Below are positions 30,719 to 57,700 of a stretch of 64,000 bases of DNA, piece by piece. The notes beneath the pieces were generated by a model. The model was not told the DNA's origin. It saw nothing but the letters and a program-made list of their open reading frames with translations, and made no database searches. The position numbers were made by a program, and so were the translations under genes. The first letter of the stretch is position 1. The number at the start of each line of letters is the position of its first letter. This DNA comes from Oligoflexales bacterium. Its GTDB lineage: Bacteria > Bdellovibrionota_B > Oligoflexia > Oligoflexales > RGVZ01. The DNA lies in assembly GCA_947494335.1 (NCBI GenBank), contig CANLUT010000003.1:349705-413704 (forward strand), given 5' to 3'.

Positions 30719-33700
30719 TTAGGGGCTGGTGAGGAGGGCAGAGCTGGTGGTTACTGTCATGCCTGTTGTGTACAACACACAGCGGTAGAGGTGGTTGTTA
30801 TTGGCTGAAGTAAGATCGATAAGATACAGGGTACTATCCGTACCGCCATCAACCGCAATCCACGTCACTCCGCTATCCGTACTGAGCTGCCACTGATATG
30901 TGATACCCAGATTTTGAGGCGAGAAGGCTGCTACACTGAATGTGGCCTGTCCACCGGAAGCGGTCTGAGAAATTGGCTGGGACGTAACGATAATCTCACC
31001 AGAGCTTGACCCAGTTAGACCAACACTATAGCTTGCACCGGCAGAGACCGCCGTCCAGTTAGTATATGATCCAATCTGTAAAGGCGCTGAACGAGTGATA
31101 GTTGTGCCGTCGCCAAGTCGACCGTTGCTGTTGGCACCCCAGGCATAAAGCATACCTCCCCGAACTCCAAGGCCATGGCTACCACCAGCAGACACGTCAG
31201 TCCAGTTCGTGAAGGCTCCAATCTGCACCGGTGCCGTTCTTTGTGTCAGCGTTCCATCACCCAAGTGATAAGAGCTGTTAGCACCCCATCCCCAAAGGGT
31301 GCCTGACCTCAAGCCAAAGCTATGGTACGCGCCACCCACAACCTTGGTCCAAGTGGTGAGAGCGCCGATTTGAACCGGTGTTGTTTTATTGACCGTGGTG
31401 CCATCACCCACCTGACCATTGCTGTTGCCGCCCCACGCAAAGAGCATTCCGCCCCTGATACCAAGAGAGTGTTGGGTACCGACACCGATACTAGTCCATG
31501 TGGTATTCGCGTCAATTAGGACAGGTGACAAGCGATTGGTCGTCGTGCCATCACCTAACTGGCTCACGTTATTGTATCCCCATGCATAAAGCTGACCACC
31601 TTTAATACCGAGTACGTGATGCCCGTTGGAACTGATTGTCACGTCCGTCCAGTTAGTATCCACGCCGATTTGAACTGGCGCACTACGCTGGGTTTGCGTG
31701 CCATCACCAACTGTGCCGAAAAAGTTGTAACCCCAACCATAAAGCCTTCCGGCGCGTATCCCTAAACTCGCTTGGAGACCTGCCGCTACGTGCGTCCAGT
31801 CTGTAAATGCCCCGATTTTAACCGGCGTGGTGCGAGTGACAGTTGTACCATCTCCTAGCTGGCTAAATGAATTTGTTCCCCAAGCGTATAGCACCCCATC
31901 ACGAATACCAAGGGTGTGGTTAGCTCCTGCTGACAATTTACTCCAGTTAGAATCTGTTCCGATTTGGGTTGGGGCAAGTCGCTGACTGGTTGACGTGGTA
32001 ATACCCAATTGACCGCTGGAGTTGTTACCAATCACGTAGAGCTTGCCTGCACTCAGCATCAGATTATGGTGAAAACCAATCTCAATAGCACTCCAGTTGG
32101 AATCAGACCCAATTCTCACCGGAGAACTGCGATCAATGGTTGTGCCGTCAGCATGCTGTCCAAACTGGTTATTACCGAAACTCCAAATCTCTCCAGATTT
32201 CATGGCCACTGAGTGGGCGTGACCTGCATTCACGGCAGTCCATGTGGTCTCACTACCAATTTGGACAGGAGATGTACGCTGGGTGGTCGTTCCGTCACCA
32301 AGCTGACCACTGGAGTTTAGACCCCATGCATAGATTTGACCACCAGCCCGAAGAGCAATGGTATGGACTGATCCCGCAGAAACCATCGTCCAATCTGTGA
32401 AAACGCCCACTTGCACTGGCGAAGTTTGCTGAGTGGTGTTGCCAATACCAAGTTGACCGTTGGTATTAAGACCCCAGGCATAGAGTCGACCTGCACGAAT
32501 ACCCATCGAGAAGTTACCCATTTGGGCTGCCGATATCCACGTCCAGTCCGTAGCGGTACCGATTTGGACAGGCGACAATCTCTGTGTGGTTGTACCGTCA
32601 CCAAGCTGACCGCTCGAGTTTAAGCCCCATGCGTATAGCTTGCCACCTTTGATACCTAGAGAATGTGAAGCACCTGCAGCCACCATGGTCCAGTCCGAAT
32701 CAACGCCGATTTGTACGGGTGAAGCACGATTGATCTGAACACCATCACCGATACGACCGCTAGAACCAGCACCCCAAGCCCACAAAGTACCTGAGCGAAG
32801 ACCTAGACCATGGAATTGGCCATTTGAAACTGCTGTCCAGTCCGTAGCCGTGCCAATTTGGACTGGCAATGTCTTAGTGACGGCTGTTCCATCACCCAAC
32901 TGGTTGTTAGCACCTAGGCCCCATGCGTAGAGACGACCAGAACGGATAGCGTGCGAGAAGCTGCCGCCGGCACTAACCGTCGTCCAATCGCTATCCACAC
33001 CAACCTGGGTCACAACCATACTCATGGCATTAGGCAACCCGTCACCATGCTGAGAGTTGGCGTTTAGACCCCATGCATGGTAATAAGACGCTGCATTCAG
33101 ACTGTAGGTAAAGTTCATTGTATTGGAGGCTGTATTATTATTGCCTGCAGTATCAGTCGCGACGGAGGCCGCGATAGAGACGCTGACGGTGCCTGCGCTA
33201 GTTGGGGTCACGGTAAATGAATAACTCGATCCACTGCCGCTGAAGCTTCCAGCTGTACCGTTCACGACTGTCACATCACCCACGACAAACCCAGCCACTG
33301 ACTCACTGAAAGTCGCTGTCATGGAAATGGCGCCAGATGTATGCGAGGCGGTCGAACTCGTAAGTGCGACCGTAGGACTCGATGTGTCAATGATAACATT
33401 GTGCAAGTTAGCCAAGTTGTTTGAAACGGGTAGCGTCAACGTCGCATCGGTGCTCGCTTGATCCTTAATGGAGTCAGTGCCGACATTGAAAGCCGTCACA
33501 TTTAGATCTGCGGCGCTATGACCAGACATGACCGTGTAGCGGTAGCGTATGGTGTCTCCATCTGGCTTTGACTGGTAGACTGCAAGATAACCGTTGGTTA
33601 GGGTTAGCGTTGAATTGGTTCCCACCTGAGTGACGGATTCTGAGAAGTTCACATCGATGTCAACCACTGTGCCGGCTGCGTATGTACCATTAACACCAGT

Positions 33701-36700
33701 TATTGTAGAAATAGTCGGAGTGGTCGTATCGATGACGATATTTTTCTGGCCACCAATACTGCTCGCACCGCCCGGGGCCGGCAGTGTCAATGTGGCGTTA
33801 TTGTTAGACGCATCTTTAATGGTGCCAGAATTAAGACCGAGGGACGTTGTGGCAATATAATCAAGATCTGCAGCGTTTTGACCATTTACGACCGTATAAT
33901 TGAACGTCAACACCGTTGTTCCCGAACCAGACGAGTAATTAACGACCGCGTTGTTTCCACCGCCGCCTGTACCAAGGGTAATCTGCGGTGTACCAGTGAC
34001 GATCACAGCTTCGGTGAACGTAACGGTGATCGGTACGAGCTGCGTTGCTTTATACGCGCCGTCCGCAGCAGTTGATGTGACCGACGACACGGTTGGTATT
34101 ACAGAATCGTTGACGTACGTGGTCATACTTGTACACGCTGAGACGTTACCAGCAGCGTCTGTGACTTGGGCAAAGATCGTATTGGTCGAGTTAGCGGTCA
34201 GAGCATTGGTGGTTTTAGTCGCTGAGCCTGCGCTGGCGCCAGTGGTTCCCGAAATAGCTGTGCTACAGCCGCTGTTGCTGTAGAGCGTAAAGTTTGAAAC
34301 TGTTTCAGACAATGTCGCTGTAATGGTCGGCGTTGTGCTAACGTTTGGCGAGATCGGCGAAATGGAGCTATAGGTGACCGTCGGAGTCACAGTGTCGATC
34401 ACAATCGCCTTAGTGCCCGCAATACTGAAGGATCCACCAACCCCTGGAAGGGTCAATACTGCGTTGTTTCCAGTCGAGTCCTTAATTGTACCGCCGTTCA
34501 GTGCTAAGGACGAAGTGTTAACATAGTCAAGATCTGCAGAGTTATTCCCTGCTCCGACCGTATAGGTAAATGTCAGAGTCGTTGAGCCAGAGCCACTCGC
34601 GTAGTTAACAGCAGTTCCTGCGCCGCCAGTAGCAAGAGTTAGTTGAGGGAAGCCAGTCACCGTGACACTTTCAGTGAATGTCACTTGAATGGAGACCGCT
34701 TGGCTGGCTCTATAGCTGCCGTTACCAGTACTTGAAGTGACAAGTGAGACCGTGGGGGCTGTGCTGTCATTTATGTAAGTGACCAACGACGTACAGCCAG
34801 ACGCATTACCTGCAGCGTCGATCGCTTTACCGTAGATGATGGTACTGTTGTTAGCGTTGACGTTGGCATTAACTGTTATGCCAGGCGATGCGAACGCCGT
34901 ATTAGCTGTGGCTGCGGACTTAGGCGTCGCACAACCAGAATCGTAATAAAGAGTAACTGTAGAAGTCTCAGACGCTGTACCAAAGACCGTCGGCATCAGG
35001 GATGTTCCTGGCGTTGCAGGGCTTACCGATGAATAGGTCAGAGTCGGAGCCGAAGTATCAAGAGTTACCGTGTTATCAGACGATGTGGAGGCCGAGTTGG
35101 TGTTACCAAAAGTATCTGTCACCGTATTGGCTGCAATTGACGGTTTAAGGGTCCCTGCTCCTGTCACAGGAGTAGCTCTCAAGTTCCAGGTGATATTATC
35201 TGTGGTCGTCAAAGTCCATGTGATGCCTGTTGCTGTGCCGCCCGTATTGAGGATATCTCCGTTCGTAAATGTGCTCGGATCCACGGCCGCAGAGAAGACC
35301 ACCGTAAAGTCGATCGGTGCCGCATTAACTGGATCAGACTGACCAACTTTTTGGTTGACTGTGACTGACAGGGCCGCAGGTGAGTAGCTGACACTATTTG
35401 AAGAATCCACCAACCCAGCAGATACGTTACCGGCAGCATCAGTAACCGCGGCCGCGGCGAGACGTGGCTGCAGGGTTCCGCTGCTGGCGGATGTTGCACC
35501 GACGGTGAAGGTGGTGCTATCGCCACTGTTTGTGATGGACCATGTCACTCCGGTCGCGGTTCCCAAATTAGTGATATCTGCAGCCGTCAATGTGGCCGGG
35601 TTGATCGCCTCTGAAAAAGTCAATGTGAAGTTAATCGGCGCAGAATTTGTCGTAGCGGTTCCAGTTCTCGCAAACGAGTTCACTGTTGGCGCAATATTAT
35701 CATAATTGTATGTCACCATACCTACACAAGCTGTGGTATTACCCAGGGCGGTGACACCTAACGCGTATACCTCTGTTACGCTATTTGCCGGTAAAGTGAA
35801 CATCGGAATTGTTTGGCCAGAACCCGTCGTAATAGCTGTTGGGTTTGATATCTGCCCACCGCATTCAAAATCGTCATATAATGTAACAGTGGCCGCCTCT
35901 GTTGTTGTCAATGTTAAAGTCGGCGTACCGTTCGAGCTTGGAGACGATGGAGAAATCGAGACATATGTCAAAGTCGGCGGAGCTGTATCGATCACAATCG
36001 CTTTTTGACTTGCAAGGCTTGATGCACCTGAAGTTGATGGCAACCCGAGTGCGGCATTATTACCTGCAAGATCTTTAATAGTGCCGCTGTTAAGGGCTAG
36101 AGCTGAAGTGGAGGCATAGTTCAAATCAACTGAGGTCTGCCCGAGAGCGATCGTATAGTTGAAGGTCAGAGTCGTTGTACCAGAGCCGCTTGCATAATCT
36201 ACCACAGCATCACTCGCACCGCCGCCTGTACTCAAAGTCAATCGTGGAGTGCCAGTGACGTAGACGACTTCGCCAAAGACAACGTTGACAGGGATTGTTT
36301 GACCAAGTTTATAAGTACCGTTGGCCGCACTGGAGGTGACACTTGTAACCGCTGGTACATTTCCGTCATGGACATAAGTGGTCATACTTGTACAGCTTGA
36401 GACGTTTCCTGAAAGGTCAGTCACTTGAGCGTGAATGTTATTAGTGCTGTTGGCAGCAAGTAGCGTCGTAGCCACGTTGTTACTGCCAGCCGTTCCGCTG
36501 CCGGTAGGCGACGAGATGCCAGTTAAGCAAGAACCATCACTATAGAGACGGACTAATTGAGCAGCCTCTGACAAGTTGATTGTCAAGGTCGGCGTTTGTG
36601 TCGTGCCCGGCGAAACTGGTGAGATAGACGTATACGAGACGGTTGGAGTCACAGTGTCGATGACCAGAGCTTTATTGGCTGCCAAGCTACCTGTAGCACC

Positions 36701-39700
36701 AGGTGTCGGTAGTGTGAGGGACGCATTGTTGCCAATGGCATCGCGGATTGTGCCGCCATTGAGAGCAAGAGAGCTCGTCGCCGCATAGTCTAGGTCTGCT
36801 GAGTTTTCCCCGTTAAAGACCGTATAATTGAAGGTCAGTGTGTTGGTGCCTGATCCGCTTGCGTAGTTAACAATGGTATTAGAGCCGCCAGTGGCTAGGG
36901 TGATTTGAGGGGAGCCTGTGACGGTCACGACTTTGGAGAAGGTCAACTGCACGGGCACAGCCTGCCCAGACTTGTAGTTGCCATTGGCAAGACTTGACGT
37001 AACATTGGTGACTGTTGGAGCTGCATTGTCGTGTGTATAGCTGACAAGGTTCGTACAGCTTGATGCGTTACCAAGAGCATCGACGGCTCTTGCATAGATA
37101 GTGGTCGAAGCATTCGCGGCCACATTACTGGTAAGCGTAATACCAGGACTTGCAAACGCGGCATTAGACTGAGCAGCAGAGCGTGGTGTGTTACATGCCC
37201 CATCAAAGTAAAGGGTCACAGTTGAAGTCTCAGTCGCCGTACCTCTGACAGTTGGTGTAAATGAGTTATTAGGACTGGTTGGCGAAATGGACGAGAACGA
37301 CAGAGTCGGCGCCGTCGTATCCATGGTGACCGTATTATCGATCGATGTGGACGCGGCGTTTTGATTACCGTAGGCATCGGTTACAGAGCCAGCCGCAATG
37401 GATGGTATGACTGTACCAGAAGTCGAGATGGCTGTAGCCGTCAGTGTCCATGTGATGTTATCTGTGGTGCTAAGAGACCATGTGAAACCCGAAGCCGTGC
37501 CGTTTTGAACGATATCATTCGTAGCAAAGCTTGATGCACCGACGGCTTTGGAGAAGACCACGGTAAAGCTAATCGGTGCTGCTGCTACGGGATCAGCCTG
37601 GCCGGACGCTTGATTTATATTCACTGTATAACTTGATGCGGCATAATCTACCGACTGAGTAGCCGTGATAGCGCTTGCATTGGCATTGCCGGCCAAATCG
37701 GTCACACCGGAGGCCGCGATGCGAGGAATCAATGTTCCATCACCCGATGACGTTGCAGACACTGTGAATGCTGTCGTAGACACCGCAGATACGGTCCATG
37801 AAACCGCTGATGCTGTACCAGAGTTGCTAATATCGGCTCCAGTAAAGCTCATAGGGTCTATCGCTTCATTGAAAGTCGCCGTGAAGTTCACCGAAACTGA
37901 GTTAGTGGTTGTAGCCTGGCCCACAGCCCTCACGAATGTCACATTAAGCGGCGCAACACTATCGTTGGTGAAGACCACCAAGTTCGTACACGAAGCGTTA
38001 CCAAAGGCGTCTACGGCGCGAGCATAAATGGTCGTGGCCGCATTAGCGGAAAGACTATTTGTTGTAATCGTCTTGCCCGCACCTGACGTCATTGAGGAAG
38101 AACTTGAGACTGGCGACGTACAAGTAGCCTCACTATGCAGGGTCACGGTTGCGTTCTCAGATAGACTGAATGTGACCGTCGGAGTAAGAATCGTCGCAAA
38201 GTTCGCAGGTGAGATCGATGTATAGGTGACCGTCGGTGCCAATGTGTCCACAATGATCGCTTTTTGACCCGAGAGACTTGATCCGCCGGCTAGGGCTGGC
38301 AAAGCAATGGACGCAGAGTTACCAGCGATGTCTCTGATGGTTCCGCCGTTGAGCGCCAAAGCTGATGTGGATGCAACTTCCAAAGGATTCGCTGATTGAC
38401 CAGCACCAACTGTGTAATTGAATAGAATCGTCGACGTTCCACTGCCCGAGACATAGTTGACCGCAGTCCCTGCACCACCCGTTGCGAGAGTCAATTGGGG
38501 CGTACCTGTGACAGTGACCGCCTCAGAGAACGCAACCGTTACCCCAATCACCGCACCGGCGCTGTAAGTGCCGTTCGCCGTATTCGAACTGACGGAAGAA
38601 ACGCTTGGCGCTATGCTATCGTGGGTATAACTAGCAATGGATAGACAGCTTGAAGCGTTACCAACAGAGTCGGTCGCTTTGATGGACAGGCTTGTGGTCG
38701 TATTAGCTGTCAGCGAAGTGGTGACTAGAGTGTTGTTACCAGACGCACCCGCCACAGAAGCAGACGCGGTAACGGAGCAGGTAGCGTTACTGAAGAGTTG
38801 TAGGGCTGAAGTTGCCTCACTCACATTAACTGTGATGCTTGGAGTCTGAGTTGTTCCTGCTAGTGACGAGCTAGCGGCCACAAGAGATACGGATGGAGCC
38901 GTCGTATCAATGACGATATTCTTGTTAGCCGTCAGGCTACCCGGTGCCGCAGAGGCTGGAAGTGTCAGGTTAGCATTATTTCCAAGTGAGTCTCTTATGG
39001 ATCCGCCGTTTAGGGCGAGAGACGATGTGCTTACATAGTCTAGTTTAGCTGACGTATCGCCAGGTGCTACAACATAGGTGAATGCTAAAGTATTGGTGCC
39101 AGTACCACTGACGTAGTTGACTGTGGTATTAGCTCCGCCGGTAGCCAACGTTAGCTGTGGGATTCCGGTAACGGTTACTACTTTAGAGAATGTGACGGTC
39201 AATGCCACCGACTGGCCTGACTTATAAGTACCGTCCGCCAAACTAGAAGTCACGTTGGTGACCGTTGGCGCGGCACTGTCATTTGTATATGTAACCAGGT
39301 TTGTACAGCCGGAGACATTTCCGGTCGCATCCACTGCTTTACCGTAGATCACAGTCGTCGTGTTGGCGTTGGCATTTGACGTCAAAGTAATACCTGGTGA
39401 AGCAAATGCTGTGTTCGCGACACTTGCAGACCTAGGAGTCTGACACAGAGAATCATAGTACAGAGTTACTGTAGACGTTTCAGATGTCGTGCCGAGTACT
39501 GTCGGCGTTAAAGTAGCCGCTGGATTGGACGGAGTGACTGATGAGAAGGTGAGGGTTGGCGCCACGTTATCGTAGGTCACGGTGCTATCAACACCGGTCG
39601 AGCTTGAATTAGCATTACCGAACGCGTCGACGACCGTGTTTGCGGCGATACTTGGGATAATCGTTCCAGGACTTGCTACACCGGCGGCCTGAAGAGTCCA

Positions 39701-42700
39701 AGTTATATTGTCTGATGTGGTGAGTGTCCAAGATGTAACAGACGCCGTACCGCCAGCGACGATATCGGCAGGCGTGAACGATGCTGGATTTACGGCTTGC
39801 GAGAACACAACCGTATAGGTCACTGGCAACACATTTGTTGGATCACTCTGTCCAGCGGCTTGGTTGAGTGATACTGAAAGTGCAGCTGGCGAGTACGTCA
39901 CGTTGTCTGATGCATCCACAGCAGACGCGCTAGAGTTACCCGCCACGTCCGTCACTGCAGAAACAGCAAGTCTTGGCTGTACCGTACCCGTTCCAGCTGC
40001 GGTGGCTGCGATCGTGAATGTCTGATTATTGCCGGAGTTTGTCACACTCCACGACACACTGGTTGCGGTTCCGACGTTCGTAAAGTCAGCAGCCGTGAGG
40101 CTCAGCGGCGCAATCGCTTCTGAGAAGGTCAACGTAAAGTTCATCGGTACCGAGTTGGTCGACGCCAACTGACTACCCGCCCGCGCAAACGAGGACACAG
40201 TTGGCGGCGCCGAGTCATGGGTATAGGTCGTCATGCTTGTGCATGAGGTCGTATTGCCAAGAGCCGTGACGCCTTTGGCGTAAATCGCAGTAGAGCCGTT
40301 AGCCGCCAGTGTAAACGTCGTCACAGTCTGGCCTGCACCAGTGGTCAATGACGCTCCACCTGATATGGCCGTACCACAACCTGAGTCGCTGTAGAGAGTA
40401 ACCGTTGCCGCTTCGGTTGTGGTCAGGGTCACTGTGGGTGTCCGACTGCTGCCTGGAGACGACGGCGAAACGGATACGTAAGCCAATGTTGGTGGCGTCG
40501 TATCGATCACAATCGCTTTTTGGCCGGCGATGCTTGAGCCAGAGCCCGGATTAGGAAGGGTCAAGGTGGCGTTATTGAGGGCTGCATCTCTGATTGTACC
40601 GCCGTTCAGCGTCAACGCAGCTGTGGATGCATAATCAAGATCTGCAGAGGACTGACTGAGGCCAACCGTATAAGTGAAGGTCAATACACTTGTACCAGAA
40701 CCACTCGTGTAATTGACGACTGCGTTGTTAGCACCACCGCCAGTTGATAGTGTCAACTGAGGTGTGCCGGTGACCGTGACACTTTCGGTAAACGTTACAT
40801 TGATGGCCACGGTCTGTCCAAGCCTATAGGTACCGTTAGCCGACGATGAGGAAACTGATGTAACCGTAGGTAGAGCACTATCGTTCGTATAAGACGTCAT
40901 GAGCGTACATGAGGAGGCGTTACCCGCCAAATCCGTAACCCTACCGTAAATGCTGGTGACAGCATTCGCCGTCAAAGTAAGGGTCGTGAGAGTATTGGCC
41001 CCAGCGGCACCAGCTGTGGAAGCTGATGCGGAGACCAGACATGAGCCATCACTAAAGAGTTGAATCGCTTGTGCAGCCTCTGAGACATTGAAGGTCACTT
41101 GCGGCGTTTGCGACGATCCAGGCGAGGTCGGTGAAATAGCTGTGTAGGTGATGGTCGGTGTGACCGTATCGATAACAATCGACTTATTGGCGCCAAGGCT
41201 GCCTGATGCACCAGGCGCAGGCAAGGTCAGAGCCGCGTTATTTCCGAAAGCGTCGCGGATTGTTCCACCATTGAGAGTCAATGATGCCGTCGAAACATAA
41301 TTGAGAAGTACCGAGTTCTCGCCAGCGAAGACCGTATAATTGAAGGTCAGGGTATTGGTACCTGAGCCACTGGCATAGTTTACAACTGTATTGGAACCAC
41401 CAGTTGCAAGGGTGATTTGCGGGGTTCCAGTTACGGTTACAGCTTTAGAGAAGGTCAACTGCACTGGCACAACCTGGCCAGCCTTATAACTACCACTTGC
41501 TAGGCTGGTGTTGACATTGGTAACCGTAGGCGCTGTACTGTCATGGGTATAGGTTGTCATGCTCGTACAGCTTGATGCGTTACCAAGTGAGTCTACGGCT
41601 TTAGCGTAGATGGTCGTCGAAGCGTTACTTGCCACGTTACTGGTCAACGCAATACCTGGGCTTGCAAAGATGGTATTGGCCTGACTCGCAGAACGAGGTG
41701 CAGTACAAGACACATCAAAGTATAGGGTCACGGTCGATGCCTCTGAGGTCGTACCAAGTACAGTTGGCGTTAGTATATTGTTCGGACTGGTTGGTGTAAT
41801 CGACGAGAACGTCACGGTCGGTGCGATGGTATCCATTGTTACAGTGTTATCGATTGCAGTCGATGCCGCGTTCTGGTTACCGAATGCATCCGTTACCGTT
41901 GAAGCGGCAATGGATGGAATGAGCGTACCAGAAGCACTGACGGACGTTGCTGCTAGTGTCCAGGTGATATTATCGGTTGTCGCCAAAGACCAAGTTAAAC
42001 CGGTAGCCGTGCCATTCTGCACAATATCATCTGTATTAAAGCTTGATGAGCCGACGGCTTTGGAGAAGACCACGGTAAAGTTAATCGGGGCCACTGCCAC
42101 TGGATCAGATTGACCTGCCGCCTGGTTAACCGTAACTGTAAACGGAGCTACGGAATAATCGACAGACTGTGTAGCGATCATGGCACTGCTATTCGTATTA
42201 CCAGCCAAGTCAGAGATACCGTTTGGCGCAATTCTTGGCATTAAGGTGCCATCACCAGAAGACGTTGCAGCCACAGTAAACTGAGTTGAGGAGATTGATG
42301 TGACGGTCCAGGCGACCGCTGATGCGGTACCAGTGTTACTAATATCTGCGCCCGTGAAGCCAGCGGCATTAATCGCCTCATTAAATGTCGCTGTGAAACT
42401 TACTGGGACGGAATTTGTAACCGCCGCCTGACCACCAGCGCGAACAAAGGACACAAGAAGCGGCGCCACACTATCATTAGTGAAGACCACCAAATTCGTG
42501 CACGAAGCGTTACTAAAGGCGTCTACAGCGCGAGCATAAATGGTCGTGGCCGCATTAGCGGAAAGACTATTTGTTGTAATCGTCTTGCCCGCACCTGACG
42601 TCATTGAGGAAGAACTTGAGACTGGCGACGTACAAGTAGACTCACTATGCAAAGTTACTGTCGCACTCTCGGAGAGACTAAATGTAACAGTTGGAGTCAA

Positions 42701-45700
42701 AGTCGTCCCGAAGTTTGATGGCGATATGGATGTATAAGTGACAGTCGGTGCCAGCGTATCCACAATAATCGCTTTTTGGCCGGAGAGACTTGATCCGCCG
42801 GCTAGAGCAGGCAAGCCGAGGGATGCATTGTTGCCAGCGATGTCTCTGATGGTACCGCCATTCAAGGCAAGCGCTGATGTAGATGTTACTTCCAGCGGAC
42901 TTGCCGATTGACCAGCACCAACGGTGTAGTTAAAGAGCAATGTCGTCGTTCCACTGCCCGACACATAGTTAACCGCAGTCCCTGCCCCACCCGTTGCCAG
43001 GGTCAATTGCGGCGTGCCTGTGACAGTGACCGCCTCAGAGAACGTCACCGTTACACCAATGACGGCGCCCGCGCTGTAAGTACCGTTTGCAGTGGTGGAG
43101 CTTACTGACGATACGCTTGGGGCATTTCCGTCATGTGTGTAGCTCGCGATTGATAGACAGCTTGACGCGTTACCCACAGTATCCGTTGCTTTGATGAATA
43201 GACTTGTGGTCGCGTTGGCCGTCAAGGAACTGGTGACAAGCGTGTTATTACCAGAAGATCCTGCAACTGAGGCTGATGCCGTTACTGAACATCCAGCATT
43301 ACTGAACAGTTGCAGTGATGACGTCGCCTCACTCACATTGACTGTGATACTTGGGGTCTGAGTTGTTCCCAGAAGTGATGAACTAGCTCCCACAAGGGAT
43401 ACGGTTGGGGCCGTTGTGTCAATCACGATATTTTTATTAGCCGTCAGGCTACCTGGCGTCGCAGAGGCTGGAAGTGCCAGGTTGGCATTATTTCCCAGTG
43501 AGTCTCTTATCGATCCCCCGTTCAGGGCAAGAGACGACGTGTTGACATAGTCTAGTTTAGCTGACGTATCACCAGGCGCCACAACATAAGTGAATGCGAG
43601 AGTATTCGTGCCTGTGCCGCTGACGTAGTTAACTGTGGTGTTGGCACCGCCGGTAGCCAGAGTTAGTTGTGGTACGCCGGTGACCGTCACTACTTTTGAG
43701 AACGTGATGGTCAATGCTACAGACTGGCCTGACTTGTAGGTGCCGTCAGCCAAACTTGAAGTCACGTTGGTGACTGTTGGCGCGGCGCTATCGTTGGTGT
43801 AGGTGACAAGGTTTGAACAGCCTGAGGTGTTACCTGCCGCGTCCACGGCCTTGCCATAAATAATCGTCGTCGTGTTGGCGTTGACGTTTGACGTCAAAGC
43901 AATACCAGGGGAAGCAAACGCCGTGTTTGCGACACTTGCCGATCTTGGCGTCTGACAGAGGGAATCGTAATAAAGGGTTACCGTCGAGATTTCAGATGCC
44001 GTACCAAGTACAGTCGGTGTCAATGTGGAAGCTGGATTCGACGGACTAAGCGACGCGAACGTAAGCGTTGGCGCTACGTTATCGTAGGTTACGGTACTGT
44101 CAACACCGGTAGAGCTTGAATTGGCGTTACCAAACGTATCGACCACGGTGTTAGCAGCGATACTCGGAATAATCGTTCCAGGGCTTGCCACGGCATTAGC
44201 CTGTAGAGTCCAGGTGATGTTGTCTGAAGTAGTGAGGGTCCATGAGGTAACTGAAGCCGTACCGCCAGCAACAATATCGGCCGTCGTGAAGGATGCAGGA
44301 TTAATTGCTTGCGAGAATACAACTGTATAGGTGACTGGCAAGCCATTGGTTGGATCACTCTGTCCAGCCGCTTGGTTGAGTGATACTGAGAGAGCAGCTG
44401 GTGAGTAGGTTACATTGTCGGCTGCATCCACAGCTGACGCGCTCGCATTGCCTGCTACATCTGTGACGGCAGATGCCGCAAGTCTTGGTTGTACGGTACC
44501 ATTGCCAGCTGAAGTCGCCGCAATGGTGAACGTTTGATTATTGCCCGAGTTCGTAACACTCCAAGACACGCTGGTTGCGGTTCCGACGTTCGTAAAGTCA
44601 GCTGCTGTCAGACCGAGTGGCGCAATCGCTTCTGAGAACGTCAACGTGAAATTCATTGGCACAGAATTCGTGGACGCCAACTGACCAACCGCACGTGCAA
44701 ACGAGGACACAGTTGGAGGTGCCGCGTCATGGGTATAGGTGGTCAAGGTTGTACAAGAAGTCGCGTTACCCAGAGCCGTGACGCCCTTGGCGTAAATGGA
44801 TGTGGAACCGTTGGCAGCCAGTGTGAACGTGGTGATAGTTTGACCGGCGCCAGCGGATAGGGAAACCCCACCGGAAATGGCGGTACCGCATCCGGACTCG
44901 CTATAGAGGGTAACAGTCGCGGCCTCAGTTGTGGTCAAGGTCACCGTTGGAGTTCGGCTGGTGCCTGGGGACGACGGCGAAATGGACACGTAAGCTAATG
45001 TTGGTGGAGTCGTGTCGATCACAATTGCTTTTTGACCTGCGATGCTGGTACCTGAGCCTGGGACGGGAAGTGTCAAGGTGGCACTATTGAGTGCTGCATC
45101 TCTGATCGTACCGCCATTAGGAGTCAGTGCAGATGTTGAAGCATAGTCAAGATCAGCAGAGGACTGACTGAGGCCAACTGTATAATTGAAGGTCAACACA
45201 TTCGAGCCAGAACCACTCGCATAATTGACGACTGCATTATTAGCACCACCGCCAGTTGATAGTGTTAACTGCGGAGTACCGGTGACCGTGACGATCTCGC
45301 TGAAAGTCACATTAATCGCCACAGTCTGTCCAAGCCTATAAGTACCGTTAACTGACGACGAGGAAACCGACGAGACTGTTGGCGCCGTACTATCATTGTT
45401 GTAGGTTGTCATCAGAGTACATGCAGAAGCATTACCAGCAAGATCTGTGGTTCTGCCGTAAATCGAAGTTGTGGCATTGGCTGTCAACGTCGCGGTTGTA
45501 ATCGTATTGGCACCTGCATTTCCGGAACTTGCCGCAGATGCGGAAGTCAAACACGAACCATCACTAAATAGCTGAATCGCCTGTGCAGCCTCAGAAACGC
45601 TGAGTGTTACCTGCGGCGTTTGTGATGATCCAGGCGAGACTGGCGAAATAGATGTGTAAGCAATCGTCGGTATGACCGTATCAATCACAATTGATTTATT

Positions 45701-48700
45701 GGCGCTCAGGCTGCCGGAGGCACCAGGTGCTGGCAGGGTAAGTGCTGCATTATTACCGATCACGTCACGGATTGTGCCACCGTTGAGAGCCAATGACGTT
45801 GTTGCAACATAATCAAGGAGCCCGGAGTTCTCACCCGAGAAGACCGTATAGTTGAATGTCAGTGTATTGGTGCCTGAGCCGCTGGCGTAGTTTACAATCG
45901 TATTAGAACCACCAGTTGCAAGTGTGAGTTGTGGGGTTCCAGTCACAGTTACAACCTTGGATAAGGTCAACTGAATTGGAATAAGCTGGCCGGCTTTATA
46001 ACTACCATTCGCCAGGCTGGTATTGACGTTGGTGATTGCAGGAGCCGCGCTGTCATGGGTATAGGTTGTCATACTCGTACAGCTTGATGCGTTACCAAGT
46101 GCATCTAAGGCCCTAGCGTAGATGATCGTTGCGCTGTTACTTGCCACGTTACTGGTCAACGTAATACCTGGGCTTGCAAAGATAGTGTTTGCCTGGCTCG
46201 CAGAACGAGGCGCCGTACAGGACCCATCAAAGTATAGGGTTACTGTCGATGCTTCTGATGTCGTACCAAGCAGTGTTGGAGTTAGAACATTGTTAGGACT
46301 GACTGGTGTAATCGACGAGAACGTCACTGTCGGTGGTGTCGTATCTATGGTTACGGTGTTATCGATTGCAGTCGATGCTGCGTTTTGGTTACCGAATGCA
46401 TCCGTTACCGTTGAAGCGGCAATGGATGGAATCACGGTGCCAGATCCACCTACGGTCGTTGCTGACATTGTCCATGTGACATTGTCGGTTGTCGCCAAAG
46501 ACCAAGTTAAACCGGCAGCCGTGCCATTCTGCACAATATCATCTGTATTAAAGCTTGATGAGCCGACGGCTTTGGAGAAGACCACGGTAAAGTTAATCGG
46601 GGCCACTGCCACTGGATCAGCCTGACCCGCGGCTTGGTTAACCGTCACTGTAAACGGAGTCGCTGCATAATCTACGGACTGGGTTGCTGTCATTGAGCTA
46701 GTGTTTGTATTACCTGCCAAATCAGAGATGGCAGTCGCCGCGATTCGCGGAACCATGGTGCCATCGCCACCAGAGGTCGCTGCGACAGTAAACTGAGTCG
46801 AAGAAACGGACGTAACAGTCCAGGCCACTGCCGATGCTGTACCAGTGTTACTGACGTCAGCACCCGTGAAGGTGCTCACATCAAGCGCCTCATTGAAGGT
46901 CGCGGTGAAACTTACCGGAACAGAATTTGTGATAGCACCCTGACCCACAGCCCGCACAAAAGAAACCAGTAGAGGAGCGGTATTATCGTGGGTGTATACA
47001 ACCAAGTTGGTACAAGATGTGTTGCTGTAGGGGTCAACAGCCCGGGCATAAATCGTGGTCGCCGTATTAGCAGGCAATGTATTGGTGGCAATCGTTTTTC
47101 CTGCACCCGCAGTCATAGCTACCGAATTCGAAATCGGCGAGGTACAAGTGGACTCACTGTGCAATGTGACTGTCGATGTTTCAGACAAGCTGAATGTTAC
47201 AGTTGGGACCTGAGTATTGCTGTGCATCCCTGGAGATATGGACGCGTACGTTACTGTTGGGGCTAATGTATCGATCACGAGCGCTTTTTGCCCAGATAAA
47301 CTCGAACCACCACCAAGATTTGGCAGTGTCAATGACGACGTGTTCCCGGCAAGGTCCCTGATCGTTCCGCCATTGAGTGTAAGAGCAGAAGTCGAGCTAA
47401 CCTCGAGAGGGTTTGCACTTTGATTAGCGGCCACCGTGTAGTTGAAAAGAAGTACTGCTGTTCCACTACCTGAAACGTAGTTGACAACTGTACCAGCACC
47501 ACCCGTGGCAAGGGTCAATTGTGGCGTACCGGTAACCGCAACAGCTTCCGAGAAGGTAACGGTTACACCAATGACAGTGCCTGCACTGTAGGTGCCGTTA
47601 TTACTGGTTGAACTTACCGACGTAATACTCGGAGCCATTCCATCATGGGTATAAGTTACAATAGACATACATCCAGAAGCGTTACCAACCAGGTCAGTTG
47701 CCTTAATAAAGAGACTTGTGGTCGCGTTAGCAGCCAGAGACGTTGTCACAATCGTATTGTTACCAGCACTGCCGGCAGCGGCGCCAGAAGCAGTCACAGA
47801 GCAGGCAGCATCGCTAAAGAGTCTAAGGACCGATGCCGCTTCGCTTACGTTAACCGTGATGCTTGGCGTTTGAGTCGTTCCAGATATTGTCGAGCTTGCA
47901 GCAACCAAAGCAGTCACTGGAGCTGTCGTGTCGATGACTAAGTTCTTATTGGCCGTTAAACTGCCAGCAGATGCGGATCCTGGGAGGATCAAGTTTGCGT
48001 TGTTTCCAAGACCGTCTCTTATCGCACCCCCATTCAAGGCCAGAGACGAAGTATTCACATAATCAAGTTTAGCGGACGTATCCCCTGCGGCGACAATGTA
48101 ATTAAAGGTCAAGTTACTTGAACCAGATCCACTGGCGTAGTTGACGACAGTATTTGCACCACCCGTCGCCAGTGTCATTTGCGGGTTACCGGTGACTGTA
48201 ACCACTTTAGAGAACGTTATCGTTACTGGAATTGACTGGCCGGCTTTGTACGTGCCGTCTGCCAGGCTTGAACTCACGTTGGTGACGGTTGGCGCGGTAC
48301 TGTCATTCGTGTAGGTCACAAGGTTTGTACAACTTGAGATGTTACCTGCTGGATCAATCGCCTTACCGTAGATGATTGTTGTTGTATTAGAGTTCACATT
48401 CGAGGTTAGCGTGATACCTGGCGAAGCAAAAGTCGTATTCGCAACACTCCCAGAACGTGGGGTTTCACAAAGTGCGTCATAGTAAAGGGCGACTGTCGAC
48501 GCCTCAGATGCTGCCCCAAGAACTGTTGGAGTGAGGGTTGCAGCTGGGTTGGATGGGCTAATGGATGCGAACGATATGGTCGGTGCAACATTGTCATATG
48601 TAACGCTTCCATCGGTTCCAATGGAGCTTGAGTTTCCGTTACCAAACGTATCAACAACCGTGTTTGCCGCGATGGTCGGAATGACAGAGCCGGCACCCGT

Positions 48701-51700
48701 CATGGAAATCGCCTGCAACGTCCATGTGATGTTATCTGCCGTATTGAGGGTCCAGGAAATTCCCGAAGCCCCACCAGTATGCACAATATCGTTAGTCGCA
48801 AACGACGCTGGGTTGATAGCTTGTGAGAATACGACAGTAAATGTAATTGGCAAGGTGTTCACTGGATCACCCTGACCAACGGCTTGATTAAGCGTCACAG
48901 ACAGTGCCGCCGGAGAATAGCTTACTAGCTCGGTGGAGTCTGCCGCCGCAGTGCTCGCGTTGCCAGCAACATCAGTGACAGCAGCCGCGGCGAGGCGTGG
49001 CAAGACGGTTCCTGTTCCTGATGAGGTCGCAGACACCGTGAATGTCTGATTATTACCAGAATTTGTGACGCTCCAATTTACGCCCGTTGCAGTACCCGCA
49101 TTAGAGAAATCAACGACTGTGAGACTTGAAGGATTGATCGCCTCAGCGAAGGTCAAAGTGAAATTCATCGGCACTGAGTTTGTACTCGCCAACTGCCCAA
49201 CTGCTCTTGCAAACGATGAAACAGTCGGAGGCGCTGAGTCATGTAGGTAAGTGACCATGCTTGAACATGATGTGGTGTTACCAAGGGCTGTGACTCCCTT
49301 GGCATAAATTGCTGTCGAACCGTTGGCGGCGAGTGTATACGTTGTGATGGTCTGACCAGCACCCGCACTCAATGCGACACCGTTTGATATGGCCGTCGAG
49401 CAACCTAAATCACTATAAAGTGTAACCGTTGCCGCTTCGGTCGTCGTAAGCGTTACTGTCGGTGTACGGCTTGTTCCAGGTGAAGCCGGCGATACCGAGA
49501 CGTAAGCAAGGGTTGGAGGCGCCGTATCGATAATAATTGCTTTTTGGCCACCGAGACTTGAGGCTCCACCGGGATTTGGCAAGGTCAGGGTTGCGCTGTT
49601 ACCAGCTGCGTCGATGATTGCTCCCCCGTTGAAGGCAAGGGCTAACGTCGAAGCATAGTCAAGATCTGCCGAGGATTGTCCAAGGCCTACTGTGTAATTG
49701 AATGTCAGTACGTTGCTACCAGAACCACTGGCGTAGTTGACGACAGCATTAAGGGCTCCACCACCGGTGGCCAATGTTAGCTGCGGCGTACCGGTAACCG
49801 TAACGTTTTCATTAAACGTAATGTTAACTGGAATTGTCTGACCAAGTTTGTAAGTGCCGTTGGCCGACGACGAGGTGACCGAAGAAACAGTCGGTGCATT
49901 ACCATCGTGTGTGTAAGATGTCATCAGCGCACAAGCCGAGTCATTGCCTGCAACGTCTCTGACTTTAGCATAGATAGAGCTTCCTACATTGGCCGCTAGT
50001 GTCGAGGCTGTTATGGTATTAGCTCCCAATACACCCGCTGTCGATGCAGACGCCGACGTTGTACAAGCACCATCGGTGAATAACTGCATGGACTGGGTTG
50101 CTTCCGATACGTTTACAGCCACCTGCGGCGTCTGACTCGACCCTGGCGAAGTCGGTGTGATGGAGGTAAATGCAACGGTTGGGCTCACTGTATCGATCAC
50201 TAATGTTTTATTTCCGCCAAGACTTCCGGCTGCTCCTGGAGCAGGGAGAGTCAAAGTTGCGCTGTTGCCGATCGTATCTCTGATTGTGCCGCCATTGAGC
50301 CCCAGTGCCGATGCACTCACATAATCAAGCTTCGAGGTATTCTCGCCGGCAAAGACTGTATAGCTGAAGACTAGGGTTGTTGTTCCGGAACCACTGCTGT
50401 AGTTAACGGCCGTATTTGACGCACCAGTAACTAGCATTAACTGCGGTGTTCCTGTAACGCTGACGGCTTTGGAGAAGGTCACCTGAATCGGTATCACTTG
50501 GCCAGCCTTGTAGCTGCCGCTTGCGAGCGACGAGTTGACATTGGTGATGGTTGGCGCAGTACCATCATGTGTATAATCCACCATTTTGGTACAGGCAGAG
50601 ACATTGCCAAGCCCGTCGACCGCGCGAGCGTAGATCGAAGTGACAGCATTTGTCGCCAAATTACTAGTCAGGGTGATACCAGGGCTAGCAAAGATCGTGT
50701 TAGCATGGCTTGCAGACCTTGGAGTTGAACAGCTGGATTCAAAGTATAGAGTCACAGTTGAAGACTCCGACGATGTACCAAGGACAACAGGGGTCAAGGA
50801 ATTGCTTGGGCTTGCTGGGGTGACCGTCGAGAATGATAGTGTTGGCGCCGTCGTGTCCATGGTTACGGTGTTATCAATGGATGTTGACGCCGCGTTTTGA
50901 TTACCGAATGTATCGGTCACTGTGTTTGCCGCAATCGATGGAATTACCGTTCCAGAGACAGCAACTGTTGTAGCAGACAGTGTCCATGTGGTGTTGTCAG
51001 TCGTATTGAGAGTCCATGTAATGACAGATGCGTTGCCGTTTTGGACAATGTCAGACGTTGTAAAGCTATTGGATCCAACGGCTTTTGAGAAGACGACTGT
51101 GAAGTTTATCGGTGTCGCGGCAACGGGGTCAGATTGACCAGAGGCTTGTTCAACCGTGACCGTAAATGTTGACGCCGAGTAGCTAACGTTCTCACTAGCG
51201 GTCATTGCACTTGAATTCACATTTCCTGCTAGATCGGATATTCCAACAGCTGCGATTCTTGGGATTAATGTACCGTCACCCGCCGCCGTCGCCCTGACTG
51301 TAAACACCGTTGGGCTTACCTGAATGACTGACCACGATACAGCTGAAGCTGTGCCAGCGTTACTGATATCGGCTCCCGTGAAGCCTGCCGCGTCAATAGC
51401 TTCATTAAATGTGGCCGTGAAGTTGATCGGCACAGAATTTGTAACCGCAGACTGCGCCCCAGCCCGAACTAATGAAACATTAAGTGGTGCAATATTGTCA
51501 TGGGTGTAAGTAACCAGACTTGTGCATGACGCGTTGTTGACACCATCAACACCACGCGCGTAAATCGTCGTCCCAGCATTGGCAGGCAGAAGATTGGTCA
51601 TAATGGCCTTACCCGCACCTGCGGTCATAACAGTCGAACTGGAAATTGGTGACGTACAAGTCCCTTCACTGTGGAGAGTAACCGTTGCAGCCTCTGACAG

Positions 51701-54700
51701 GGTGAACGTAACGGTCGGATTCTGAGATGCACCAAACGTATTGGGCGATATAGATGTGTAAGCAATGACTGGCCCCGCTGAGTCAACTACAATTGCTTTC
51801 TGACCCGATAAGCTTGATGGTCCACCGAGGGTAGGTAACCCAAGAGATGCAGTGTTACCTGCGATATCTGTAATTGTTCCACCATTCAGTGCTAGAGCGG
51901 AAGTGGAAGCCACTTCGAGCGGACTTGCATTTTGGCCAGCTGCTACGGTGTAGTTGAACTGTATAACCTTCGTACCGCTACCCGAGACATAATTTACGGC
52001 TGTGTTTGACCCGCCGGTGGCCAAAGTGAGCTGAGGCGTTCCGGTTACCGTCACGTTTTCAGCAAAGGTCACAGTCACGGCAATGGCCGATCCCAGCCCA
52101 TAGGTTCCGTTGGAAGCTGTCGAGCTGACCGAGGTTACAGCTGGAGCAAGGCCGTCATGGGTATAACTTGCGATTGCGGCACAACCTGACACGTTACCGG
52201 CAACGTCCGTACCCCTAACGAAGATGCTTGTGGTGGCATTAGCAGTCAATGAGGTTGTAACCAAGGCGTTGTTACCTGCAGTTCCAGCTACTGAACCCGA
52301 AGCTGCTACTGAACATGCCGCATCACTAAATAGCCTCAAGGCAGTCGTGGCTTCAGACATGTTTAGTGTAATCGTTGGAGTCTGGCTGGTGCCGGTCAGT
52401 GAAGAATTTGGTGCGACTAATGTTGCCACTGGCGCAGTCGTATCAATAATAAGGGAGGTGTTGGCCGCTAAACTACCGACGAAGCCCGAGGTTGGTAACG
52501 TCACGCTTGCGTTATTGCCAAAGCTATCACGGATGGTGCCACTGTTGAGAGCCAGTGCTGCAGTATTTGGATAGTCAAGTTTTACTATGTTGTCGCCAGC
52601 ACTCACAATATAGTTGAAGGTGAGCGTATTGGTGCCAGAGCCACTTGAGTAATTGACGGCTGTGTTTGCAAGGCTGGTGACTAAAGTCAGCTGAGGTGTA
52701 CCCGTTACGGTCACAGCTTTGGAGAATGTAACTGTAATTGGCACCGACTGACCTACCCGATAACTGCCGTTTGCCAATGTTGACGAAACGTTGGTTACCG
52801 TAGGTGGTGCACTGTCGTTGGTGTAAGTCACGATATTGGTACAAGTGGAGACGTTACCAGCTGTGTCTGTCGCCTGAGCGTAGATCACGGTCGTATTGTT
52901 AGAGTTTACATTAGACGTTACCGTGATACCGGGTGCAGCAAATACCGTATTGGCGACTGTGGCAGAACGCGGCGTAGCACAAGCTGCATCATAGAAGAGC
53001 GCCATGGTCGACGTTTCAGACACTGTACCCAAAATAGTTGGCGTTAAGGTTGCGGCCGGATTAGACGGACTCACCGACGACAGCGTAATCGTAGGTGCCA
53101 AGACATCGTAGGTGACTGACGTATCGGTTCCAGTCGAACTCGAGTTCCCATTGCCGAATGTATCAACTACGGCATTAGCCGCAATTCCTGGAATCACAGT
53201 TCCTGAGGTCGTAACACTCGTAGCCTGGAGTGACCAAGTAATGTTATCAGCGGTGCTAAGCGACCAGGTTATACCAGCTGCCGTGCCGGATTGGACAATA
53301 TCCGCTGTAGTGAAGCTTGCTGGGTTGATCGCCGTGGAGAACACAACCGTGAACCTTACTGGCGCAATGTTGACTGGATCCACTTGTCCTGCGGCTTGGT
53401 TAAGTGTCACAGACAATGCCGCTGGCGAATAGCTCACACTCTCTGCCGAATCACTAGCTGAAACATTAGCGTTGCCAGCCACATCGGTAACACCATTGGC
53501 GGCGATCCTTGGAATGAGCGTACCGGCGGTCGCCGCAGTGGCGGCAACAGTGAACGTCTGATTATTTCCGGAATTCGTTACAGCCCAGTTAACGCCTGTG
53601 GCAGTACCCGTATTTGAAATATCAGCTGCCGTAAACGATGCAGGAACAATGCTTTCTGAGAATGTAACGGTGAAGTTCATGGGCACAGAGTTAGTAGATG
53701 CCACTTGGCCAGCAGCACGAGCAAAGCTTGAGATGCTTGGAGGTGTCGAATCATGGGTATAAGTCGTGAGGAGTGTACAGACTGAAGCGTTAGCCACGGC
53801 GTTGACGGCCTTACCATAAATAGTTGTAGCGCTGTTAGCGGTGAGCGTAAACGTCGTAACAGGCTGTGTAGCACCCGTTGCCACAGCGGTTGCTGCTGAC
53901 AGAGCTGTACCACAACCCAAGTCACTATAGAGTGTCACATTGACCGCTTCTGATGCCGTAACAGATACCGCAGGCGTTCTACTTGTTCCTGGTGAGGTCG
54001 GTGATACAGATACATAAGATAGCGTCGGCGGCGTTGTATCAATGACAATCGCTTTTTGAGCTGCCAAGCTTCCTACACCGCCAGGAACAGCCAGTGTCAG
54101 CGTTGCTTCGTTGCCAGCTATATCCTTGATGCTAGCACCGTTGCCGGAGAGAGCAGATGTGGATGCATAGTCTAGATCGGCGGAAGACTGACCAATGGCT
54201 ACCGTATAGTTGAACGTTAGTGTGTTAGTTCCTGAGCCGCTAACAAAATTAACGACTGCGTTGTTTGCTCCGCCACCCGTCGCCAATGTTAGCTGAGGTG
54301 TTCCGCCTGTGACATTAACGACTTCACTGAATGTCACCGTGACTGGGACGACTTGCGCAACCTTATAGGTTCCATTGGCAGCAGTTGAACTAACTGACGT
54401 GACAGTCGGAGCTGCGCTGTCATTAGTATAACTGGTCAGAGATGTACAACTTGACAGGTTACCCGCAAGATCTGTTACGCGACCAAAGATCGCGGTGGCG
54501 GCATTCGCAGGAAGTGATGTGGTTGTTATGGCATTAGCACCAGCGTTACCAGTTAAACCCGCGACTGAAATAGCAGAGTTACAGGTACTTTCACTGAAGA
54601 GTCGTACATTTGATGCCGCCTCAGATAGACTGACGTTGACCTGCGGTGTGAGGCTCGTATTGGGCGATGTTGGAACAATCGAAGCATAGGAGATCGTTGG

Positions 54701-57700
54701 AACTGTCGTATCGATCACCAGCGTCTTATTGGTGCCTAAGCTTCCAGCGGTATTTGGGGCGGGTAGGGTGAGAGATGCATTGTTGCCCATCGCATCTTTA
54801 ACGGTACCGCCATTGAGAACAAGAGACGACGTCGCCGCGTAATCCAGCTTCGCAGTGTTGTCGCCTGCAAATACGGTGTAGTTGAAAGTAAGGGTATTTG
54901 TGCCTGTGCCGCTGGTATAGTTCACAGTCGTAGTGGATGCACCGGTTGTCATTGTAATCTGCGGAGTGCCAGTAACCGTAACAACTTTTGAGAATGCGAC
55001 CTGCACTGGAACGACTTGGCCACCTTTGTAGCTACCACTTGCAAGACTAGAATTCACGCCTGTTACGGTCGGTGCAATACCGTCATGAGTATATGTGACA
55101 AGCTCCGTACAACTTGATGCGTTACCCAGAGAGTCGACTGCACGGCCGTAAATCACTGTGGTAGAATTCGACGCCACGTTGCTCGATAGGGTGACACCAG
55201 GGCTTGCAAAAACAGCATTGCTCGTTGCCGAAGATTTTTGGGTCGAACAGCTTGAATCATAGAAAAGAGTCACGGTCGAGGTCTTAGAAGCCGTACCAAG
55301 CACGGTTGGGGTCAGCGAGTTTCCAGGGTTGCCTGGGGTTAGAGCCACGAACGCGAGAGTAGGCGCCGTCACATCGTAAGTGACCGTATTGTCCGAGGAC
55401 GTTGAAGCGGCATTATTGTTGCCGAAAGTATCTGTTACTGAGTTCGCCGCAATTGACGGTATAACGGTACCGGTCGCCCCAACCGCCGTAGCAGAGAGGG
55501 TCCATGTGATGTTATCGGTTGATGCCAAGCTCCACGTAACCCCTGTAGCCGTGCCGTTTTGCACGATATCGGCAGTCGTGAAGCTCGAGGAACCGACCGC
55601 GCGAGAGAACACGATCGTATAGTTAATTGGCGCGACTCTTACTGGATCAGCCTGACCAGCTGCCTGATTGATTGTAAGCGTGTAACCTGCTGACATGTAG
55701 TTTACGCTATCACCAGAATCGGTCTGACTCGTGTTGGTGTTACCAGCGAGGTCGGACACAGCACCAGCGATGAGTCTTGGAATTAGAGTCCCTGTTCCTG
55801 AGGTCGTAGCTGACACTGTGAATGTGGTGCTGTTGATCGAGGTCACGGCCCAAGCAACACCGTTGGCAGTACCGGCATTCATAATATCAGAAGCAGTAAA
55901 CGACGAGGTGTTAACCGGCTCGTTAAACACGAGCGTAAAGTTCACTGGCACTGAGTTGGTAACTGTTGGTTGGCCTGACGCCCTAGCAAACGAAGAAACA
56001 CTAGGGCCAATACTATCATGGGTGTATGTGACCATTCCTGTACAGCTTGATGCATTACCAACAGAATCGACAGCCTTGGCGTGGATACCCGTCGCCGTGT
56101 TGACAGTAAGTCCACCCGTCGTGACCGTCTGACCTGGGCCGGCTACCAGTGACGTCTCAGCCGAGATGGCATCAGTACATGAAACATCTTTATACAGAGT
56201 AACCGCAGCGGCCTCGGATAGATCCATGGTTACAGTTGGAGTTTGGCTTTGGCCGGGGCTAGTCGGTGCAACAGATGTATAACTGATAGTTGGCGCCGTG
56301 GTGTCAATCACAAGCGTTCTCTGACCGGCCAAGCTGTTGACTCCACCAACAGGTGGTAGTGCAAGATTAGCACTATTGCCAGAGCCATCAAAGATCGTGC
56401 CGCCATTGAGCGTCAGTGACGACGTCGCGACGTAATCAAGACTTGCCGTGCTATCAGCAGGCGCAACCGTGTAGTTGAATGTGAGGGTATTTGTGCCGCT
56501 ACCGGATGCATAAACCGCATTACTGCCCGCACCGCCCGAAGCAAGAGCTAGACGTGGCGAGCCAGCAACCGTTACCACTTCGGAGAAGGTAACCTGAACG
56601 CTAATAAGTTGTCCCACACCGAATGTTCCGCTGTTTTGCTGCGACGTAACAGAAGAAACTGTCGGAGCAACGCCGTCGTGAGTGTAACTGGTCAACGATG
56701 TACAGCCTGACACGTTACCTGCTGTATCAGTTGCCTGACCAAAGATTGATGTCACGGCGTTTGCAGGGAGAGTTGATGTTGTGACTGTGTTTGGACCAAG
56801 TATTCCCGCAGCCGATGCTGAAATGGCATTGTTACAACCAGCATCGCTAAAGAGTCGGTAGCTTGTCACGATCTCAGAAACATTCACTGTAAGCCCTGGT
56901 GTTTGGCTTGTACTTGGGGACACAGGCGAAATAGAGGTAAAGGCAATGGTTGGTGCAGCCGTATCAATGACTAGAGATTTATTGGCAGACAAGCTACCCG
57001 CAGCCGCAAGTGCCGGCAGCGTTAAACTGGCGTTGTTGCCAAGGCCGTCTTTTATGGTGCCGCCGCTTAGAGACAGTGCATTGGTGGCGGTATATTCGAG
57101 TTTGTTAGACGTATCGCCCGGTGCAACCACATAGTTGAATGTCAGAGTGTTAGTACCGGTGCCGGACAGATAACTTGTAACTGCAGGAGTTGCCCCAGCA
57201 GCAATCGTGATCTGTGGAATCCCCGTCACGTGAACCACTTTTGAGAATGTCACGTCGATTGGAATCGCCTGGCCAGCCTTATAATTGCCGTTGGCGAGGC
57301 TAGACGTAACATTTGTAACAGTTGGTGAGGCGCTATCGTTGGTGTAGCCAACCAAACTAGTACAGGTCGAGCTATTACCCACAGCGTCAATGGCGCGTGC
57401 GAAAATGGTGGTGGTGGAATTGGCAGCAACATTACCCGTCAGCGTAATGCCTGGGCTCGCAAACGCCGCGTTAGCAACAGATGCGGATTTTGGCGTCGAA
57501 CAAGTATTATCAAAGTACAGGGTGACCGTCGACGGCTCAGAGACAGTTCCGAATAGGGTCGGAGTGAACGTCGCAGCTGGATTCGAGGGACTTAATGACG
57601 AGTACGTGACCACTGGAGCAGTGACATCATAGGTCACAACTTTATCTGTGGATGTAGATGTACCGTTGTTATTTCCAAAGTCATCAACGACCGTGTTGGA

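Follow-up and report, generated by a model that had tools for sequence, protein, structure and literature searches.

As a general rule, domain repeats grow by the copying of several domains at once, frequently in the central part of an array; the duplicated units in one survey reached up to nine domains, and nebulin carries a super-repeat of seven (PMC1553488). In the A-band of titin, which with nebulin is the best-known example of such copying, recursive block duplication produced super-repeats of seven domains in the D-zone and of 11 domains in the C-zone, whose Ig/FnIII-type domains are alike by position and whose middle repeats are closest to each other (PMC10665226). Intragenic higher-order repeats (HORs), with the monomers grouped inside the gene, have also been described for human NBPF and hornerin (PMC9584774). 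The array described here, found in an Oligoflexales bacterium, is an unusually long and regular bacterial example of these known domain super-repeats. Among known kinds it comes closest to the titin/nebulin super-repeat, as it consists of multi-domain blocks in tandem with domains alike by position. It shares with titin the block-duplicated super-repeats of Ig/FnIII-type domains and the close similarity of the middle repeats, but it is bacterial and intronless, is built of other Ig-like families, and alternates two seven-domain modules in a 14-domain unit. Nebulin likewise has a seven-domain unit and multi-domain copying, although its fold is unrelated, and the units of the survey do not exceed nine domains against 14 here. 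The NBPF and hornerin repeats also lie inside a gene, but they are primate repeats and NBPF has introns, whereas this array is wholly coding and bacterial and its copies are old and strongly diverged. It offers a clear example, from bacteria, of super-repeats nested within one another (domain, seven-domain module and 14-domain dimer) in a very large protein.

A giant gene, probably split over two contigs

ORF analysis of the window, by which we mean the whole stretch of 64,000 nucleotides that was analysed (G000:C3:349705-413704, from a source genome of 3.34 Mb in 8 contigs), revealed a minus-strand open frame of more than 33 kb. The end of a second contig, C8, holds a 3,062-aa frame built of the same type of module, with three further modules (n01-n03). 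Since the C8 frame has a start and no stop, and the window frame a stop and no start, the two are most simply parts of one gene, of which the C8 frame is almost certainly the N-terminal part; no overlap was found between the C8 and C3 ends, and we infer the join. The joined gene would encode no fewer than 14,155 aa, and a stretch of about 290 aa or more is missing between the C8 and C3 parts. By inspection, the N-terminus on C8 (MFLKGLTNWRSKVAPGAAWALLCVLPLSSC) contains the lipobox LSSC and with it the N-terminal signal of a bacterial lipoprotein, the processing of which is predicted. At the opposite end of the protein, a Pfam search identified RCC1 repeats (PF00415, E=5.5e-123) in 13 stretches. 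The features are given below, the modules being numbered m01-m13, with a partial module m00p, and those of the dimer zone falling into two classes, E and O; all are in frame, and the 13 complete modules measure 750-756 aa each.

Contig C8, L010:2655-11840 (L010 = G000:C8:36000-47841): almost certainly the 5' part of the giant gene, 3,062 aa, module-built, with lipoprotein signal
30719..64000, minus strand: giant gene, 3' part, stop-free over 11,093 codons and cut by the end of contig C3 at window position 64000
62438..64000, minus strand: m00p, partial module, last 521 aa
60182..62437, minus strand: m01, 752 aa, neither E nor O (anchor spacing, diagnostic columns)
57929..60181, minus strand: m02, 751 aa, neither E nor O, grouped with m00p at 95/96 (anchor spacing, tree)
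55673..57928, minus strand: m03, 752 aa, neither E nor O (anchor spacing, diagnostic columns)
53405..55672, minus strand: m04, 756 aa, class E, start of the dimer zone (anchor spacing, tree, columns)
51155..53404, minus strand: m05, 750 aa, class O (anchor spacing, tree)
48893..51154, minus strand: m06, 754 aa, class E (anchor spacing, tree)
46643..48892, minus strand: m07, 750 aa, class O (anchor spacing, tree)
44381..46642, minus strand: m08, 754 aa, class E, first half of the youngest duplicated block
42131..44380, minus strand: m09, 750 aa, class O, second half of the youngest duplicated block, AlphaFold2 pLDDT 88
39869..42130, minus strand: m10, 754 aa, class E, copy of m08 (87% aa identity, dS 0.81), AlphaFold2 pLDDT 89
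37619..39868, minus strand: m11, 750 aa, class O, copy of m09 (89% aa identity, dS 1.03)
35360..37618, minus strand: m12, 753 aa, class E, end of the dimer zone (anchor spacing, tree)
33104..35359, minus strand: m13, divergent, 46-53% identical to the others, last two domains of other Ig-like types (Big_12)
30722..33103, minus strand: C-terminal end, 13 RCC1 repeats of beta-propeller type (Pfam), followed by a final Ig-like stretch (by inspection)

Seven-domain modules in two alternating classes

Each module comprises seven Ig-like domains of about 107 aa in the order D-B1-A1-B2-A2-B3-C (types A, B, C and D), the borders of which were cut from the beta-strand runs of AlphaFold2 models of one E module (m10, pLDDT 89.0) and one O module (m09, 88.4); both models show the same strand pattern, a run of beta-sandwiches. 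The original prediction had missed this domain level beneath the module. Big_5 (m10 and m13) and Big_12 (m13) passed the Pfam gathering score, a Big_3_3 match in m10 lay below it, m09 gave no match to Pfam, and the module profile gave none to PDB sequences. In a domain tree, B1, B2, B3, C and D each form one clade over all modules, those on C8 included, and therefore whole seven-domain modules were copied and the module is the ancestral unit; the A domains show no one-clade-per-position grouping. Domain identity averages 31.5% at lag 1 (46% at most), 56.0% at lag 7 and 75.9% at lag 14, the copies of the 14-domain unit being far more alike than the monomers inside one unit. Between modules at lag 1, the divergence of E from O is greatest in B2, B3 and C (46-49% identity) and smallest in A1 (66%).

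With modules delimited by the anchor [VLI]xQxxGQxDP, which yields the lengths listed above for m01-m12, the spacing alternates between 2250 and 2262 bp (750 and 754 aa) across 53404-37619, and the interval at 35360-37618 measures 2259 bp, as the original prediction had described. Another choice of anchor changes the amplitude of the alternation (other anchors give 751/753) but not the pair sum of 4,512 bp. The mean self-identity of the protein peaks at a lag of 1,504 aa exactly (47.9%, against 22% at 752). The 12-bp difference in spacing is due to three class-specific indels, near alignment columns 470 (+2 aa), 646 (+1) and 726 (+1), which together make up four codons present in E and missing in O.

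The dimer zone (35360-55672) contains five modules of class E (m04, m06, m08, m10, m12) and four of class O (m05, m07, m09, m11). Protein identity among these nine is at least 63.5% within a class and at most 57.9% between classes, without overlap. Over the modules of the window, protein identity averages 56% (lag 1), 68% (lag 2), 55% (lag 3) and 64% (lag 4). The alternating split is the best by identity of the 126 possible 5/4 splits, and is marked by 21 unanimous diagnostic columns, the next-best split having 10. In the maximum-likelihood tree of the modules, O resolves as (m05,(m07,(m09,m11))) with support of 100/100, and E as (m04,(m12,(m06,(m08,m10)))) with 94/93, or 100/99 when m04 is left out. 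The two classes alternating in step and the separate clades of odd and even copies were thus correctly foreseen; the prediction was to be given up if neighbours were always the closest relatives, and within the zone they never are. It fell one module short in the extent of the zone, since it missed m04 (53405-55672), and its view of the distal modules as monomeric holds roughly for m01-m03 but not for m04, which is of class E. Module m13 lies outside both classes, as do m01-m03, and n01-n03 on C8, when tested, showed no clear class. Tandem Repeats Finder, with a period limit of 500, missed the array.

Block copying of the E-O pair and its alternatives

We hold, with a probability of roughly 0.85, that the locus is a single protein gene repeated at three levels, in which old copies of an E-O block are maintained by purifying selection, and which probably encodes a surface lipoprotein with an RCC1 head. 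The distance matrices of the two classes correlate with r = 0.977 in the E-O register, that is (m04,m05), (m06,m07), (m08,m09) and (m10,m11), and with r = 0.069 in the O-E register, values that are suggestive rather than precise given six distances per class. This congruence in a single register indicates that two-module blocks were copied together. DNA identity at a lag of 4,512 bp reaches 63-94%, with most values at 75-89%, between m08 and roughly residue 640 of m09; ahead of this youngest block it lies at 60-77%, and past it the values are lower. Both the congruent E and O trees and distances and this jump in identity support the block duplication of a two-module unit that had been proposed. 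The end of the youngest block, domain C of m09 and m11, is less alike, and domain C of m09 is nearer to that of m07 than to that of m11; a crossing-over close to where domain C starts would explain this, although the differences are small.

In our preferred reading, a module was first duplicated in the middle of the array, E and O being the two forms into which its copies diverged. The pair as a whole (14 domains, 1,504 aa, 4,512 bp) would then have been block-copied about three times, the latest copy giving rise to m08-m09 and m10-m11, putatively by in-register unequal recombination between class-mates, and strong purifying selection has kept every copy in frame and in fold. Only m08/m10 (dS 0.81) and m09/m11 (dS 1.03), with dN of 0.07, retain strong synonymous similarity module-wide; in the remaining pairs 4-fold-site identity is at or somewhat above the chance level of 27%, with a small excess in m10/m12 and a few others. 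Class-mates are 63-89% identical in protein, only one pair of blocks has escaped saturation or near-saturation of its synonymous sites, and dN/dS is ~0.08. Purifying selection on the protein explains why the dimer pattern is legible there despite the saturation. Outside the last block the synonymous signal has been lost, and how many duplications took place, and in what order, is taken from protein comparison alone; the congruent protein trees still allow the order of block copying to be read.

In m08/m10, domains D-B1 display 79% identity at 4-fold sites against 49% elsewhere (p = 2e-8), and consequently at least one later, local exchange within class E is likely, and more than simple block duplication must have taken place. 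The D-B1 stretches of m08 (44381-46642), m10 (39869-42130) and m12 (35360-37618) have a younger synonymous identity than the rest. This patch and the weaker m12 excess, all among class-mates, are what a satellite-like array in concerted evolution, through continuing unequal exchange or gene conversion, might leave behind, and the layout, with at least two monomer classes in tandem and in fixed order, is identical to that of alpha-satellite HORs, to which the array had been likened from the start. The likeness is one of layout and does not extend to the process. It fails on the chief property of alpha-satellites, the near-identity of copies, which are here of 63-89% protein identity, nearly all of them synonymously saturated or nearly so, which largely refutes concerted evolution; no significant exchange patch was found between neighbouring E and O modules, and the protein is far better conserved than the DNA, in keeping with the low dN/dS. 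We therefore regard concerted evolution as improbable, and the array is a protein super-repeat that is old and under selection, its class-specific exchange being limited at most; a higher-order repeat layout alone does not imply satellite-like homogenisation. A non-coding satellite was also considered and rejected.

Positional selection on modules copied singly, with neighbours driven to diverge or two alternating binding faces, could draw on the strong purifying selection on modules and on the identity of adjacent domains, at most 46%, which fits the reported pressure against misfolding of similar neighbours (PMC4660218). The congruence of r 0.977 in one register and the contiguous two-module block of raised DNA identity both need joint copying, and leave this explanation with only a very slim chance, although selection may still help to hold the E and O classes apart. 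We also consider it unlikely that the alternation is itself functional, as a selected 14-domain structural period of the fibre with two binding or packing faces, rather than a mere trace of copying. A false duplication or chimera in the assembly, which the break of the gene at a contig end might suggest, is scarcely credible, as even the youngest copies differ at ~18-20% of bases and 13 of 13 modules are in frame. Old block copies of the E-O pair under purifying selection remain our preferred explanation.

Probable function and relatives

The lipobox, the ~120 Ig-like domains and the C-terminal RCC1 propeller suggest a shaft that is anchored in the membrane and carries a head for binding. The protein is likely to be a lipoprotein adhesin of the cell surface in which the array forms the long shaft, with the propeller at the C-terminal end as its head, surface exposure and adhesion being deduced from the architecture. 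By the rules established in E. coli, the Asp at position +2 of this lipobox would lead to inner-membrane retention, which counts against surface exposure. Upstream of the giant gene on C8 (L010:2-2494) lies a gene for an 830-aa protein with an Ala/Lys/Glu-rich middle and an outer-membrane-barrel-like C-terminus ending in W, a possible export partner; in the search for a conserved partner gene this neighbour gave no Pfam match, and the congener loci had different neighbours.

The best Foldseek neighbour of the module model is GhpA of Aureispira (9fly, E 3.8e-13), to which VIA-align gave Z 7.9-8.8 for several fragments at 11-16% identity; against SiiE and FdeC, Z was 8.2 and 9.1. These middling scores, for GhpA, titin, SiiE and FdeC alike, show a shared Ig-like arrangement only and not to a common function. 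GhpA is likewise a giant bacterial Ig-like chain, although of low identity, and SiiE, FdeC and other giant Ig-like adhesins also form long Ig-like shafts on the bacterial surface; we know of no lipoprotein anchor combined with an RCC1 head among them. A literature search on Bdellovibrio-type giant Ig/RCC1 lipoproteins yielded nothing relevant.

Among the 43 genomes of the order that were searched, the source genome included and several of them incomplete, neither an orthologue of the array nor a seven-domain array of such size was found outside the source genome. The congeners G003 and G001 encode lipoproteins of 1,600-2,200 aa that share the A and B domains of the array and, by inspection, end in kelch-like or RCC1-like repeats. 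Two of these lipoproteins (L055:5825-12346 and L056:11571-17453), with C-terminal kelch-like repeats, have a four-domain super-repeat of their own, of 443-445 aa, and block expansion of such shafts therefore recurs in the genus. The lag profiles of L069 and L070 are meaningless, probably owing to masked stretches. Another family member, L071 (G009:C11), has a 3,322-aa frame with its best self-match at a lag of 311 aa, about three domains, which represents a further super-repeat.
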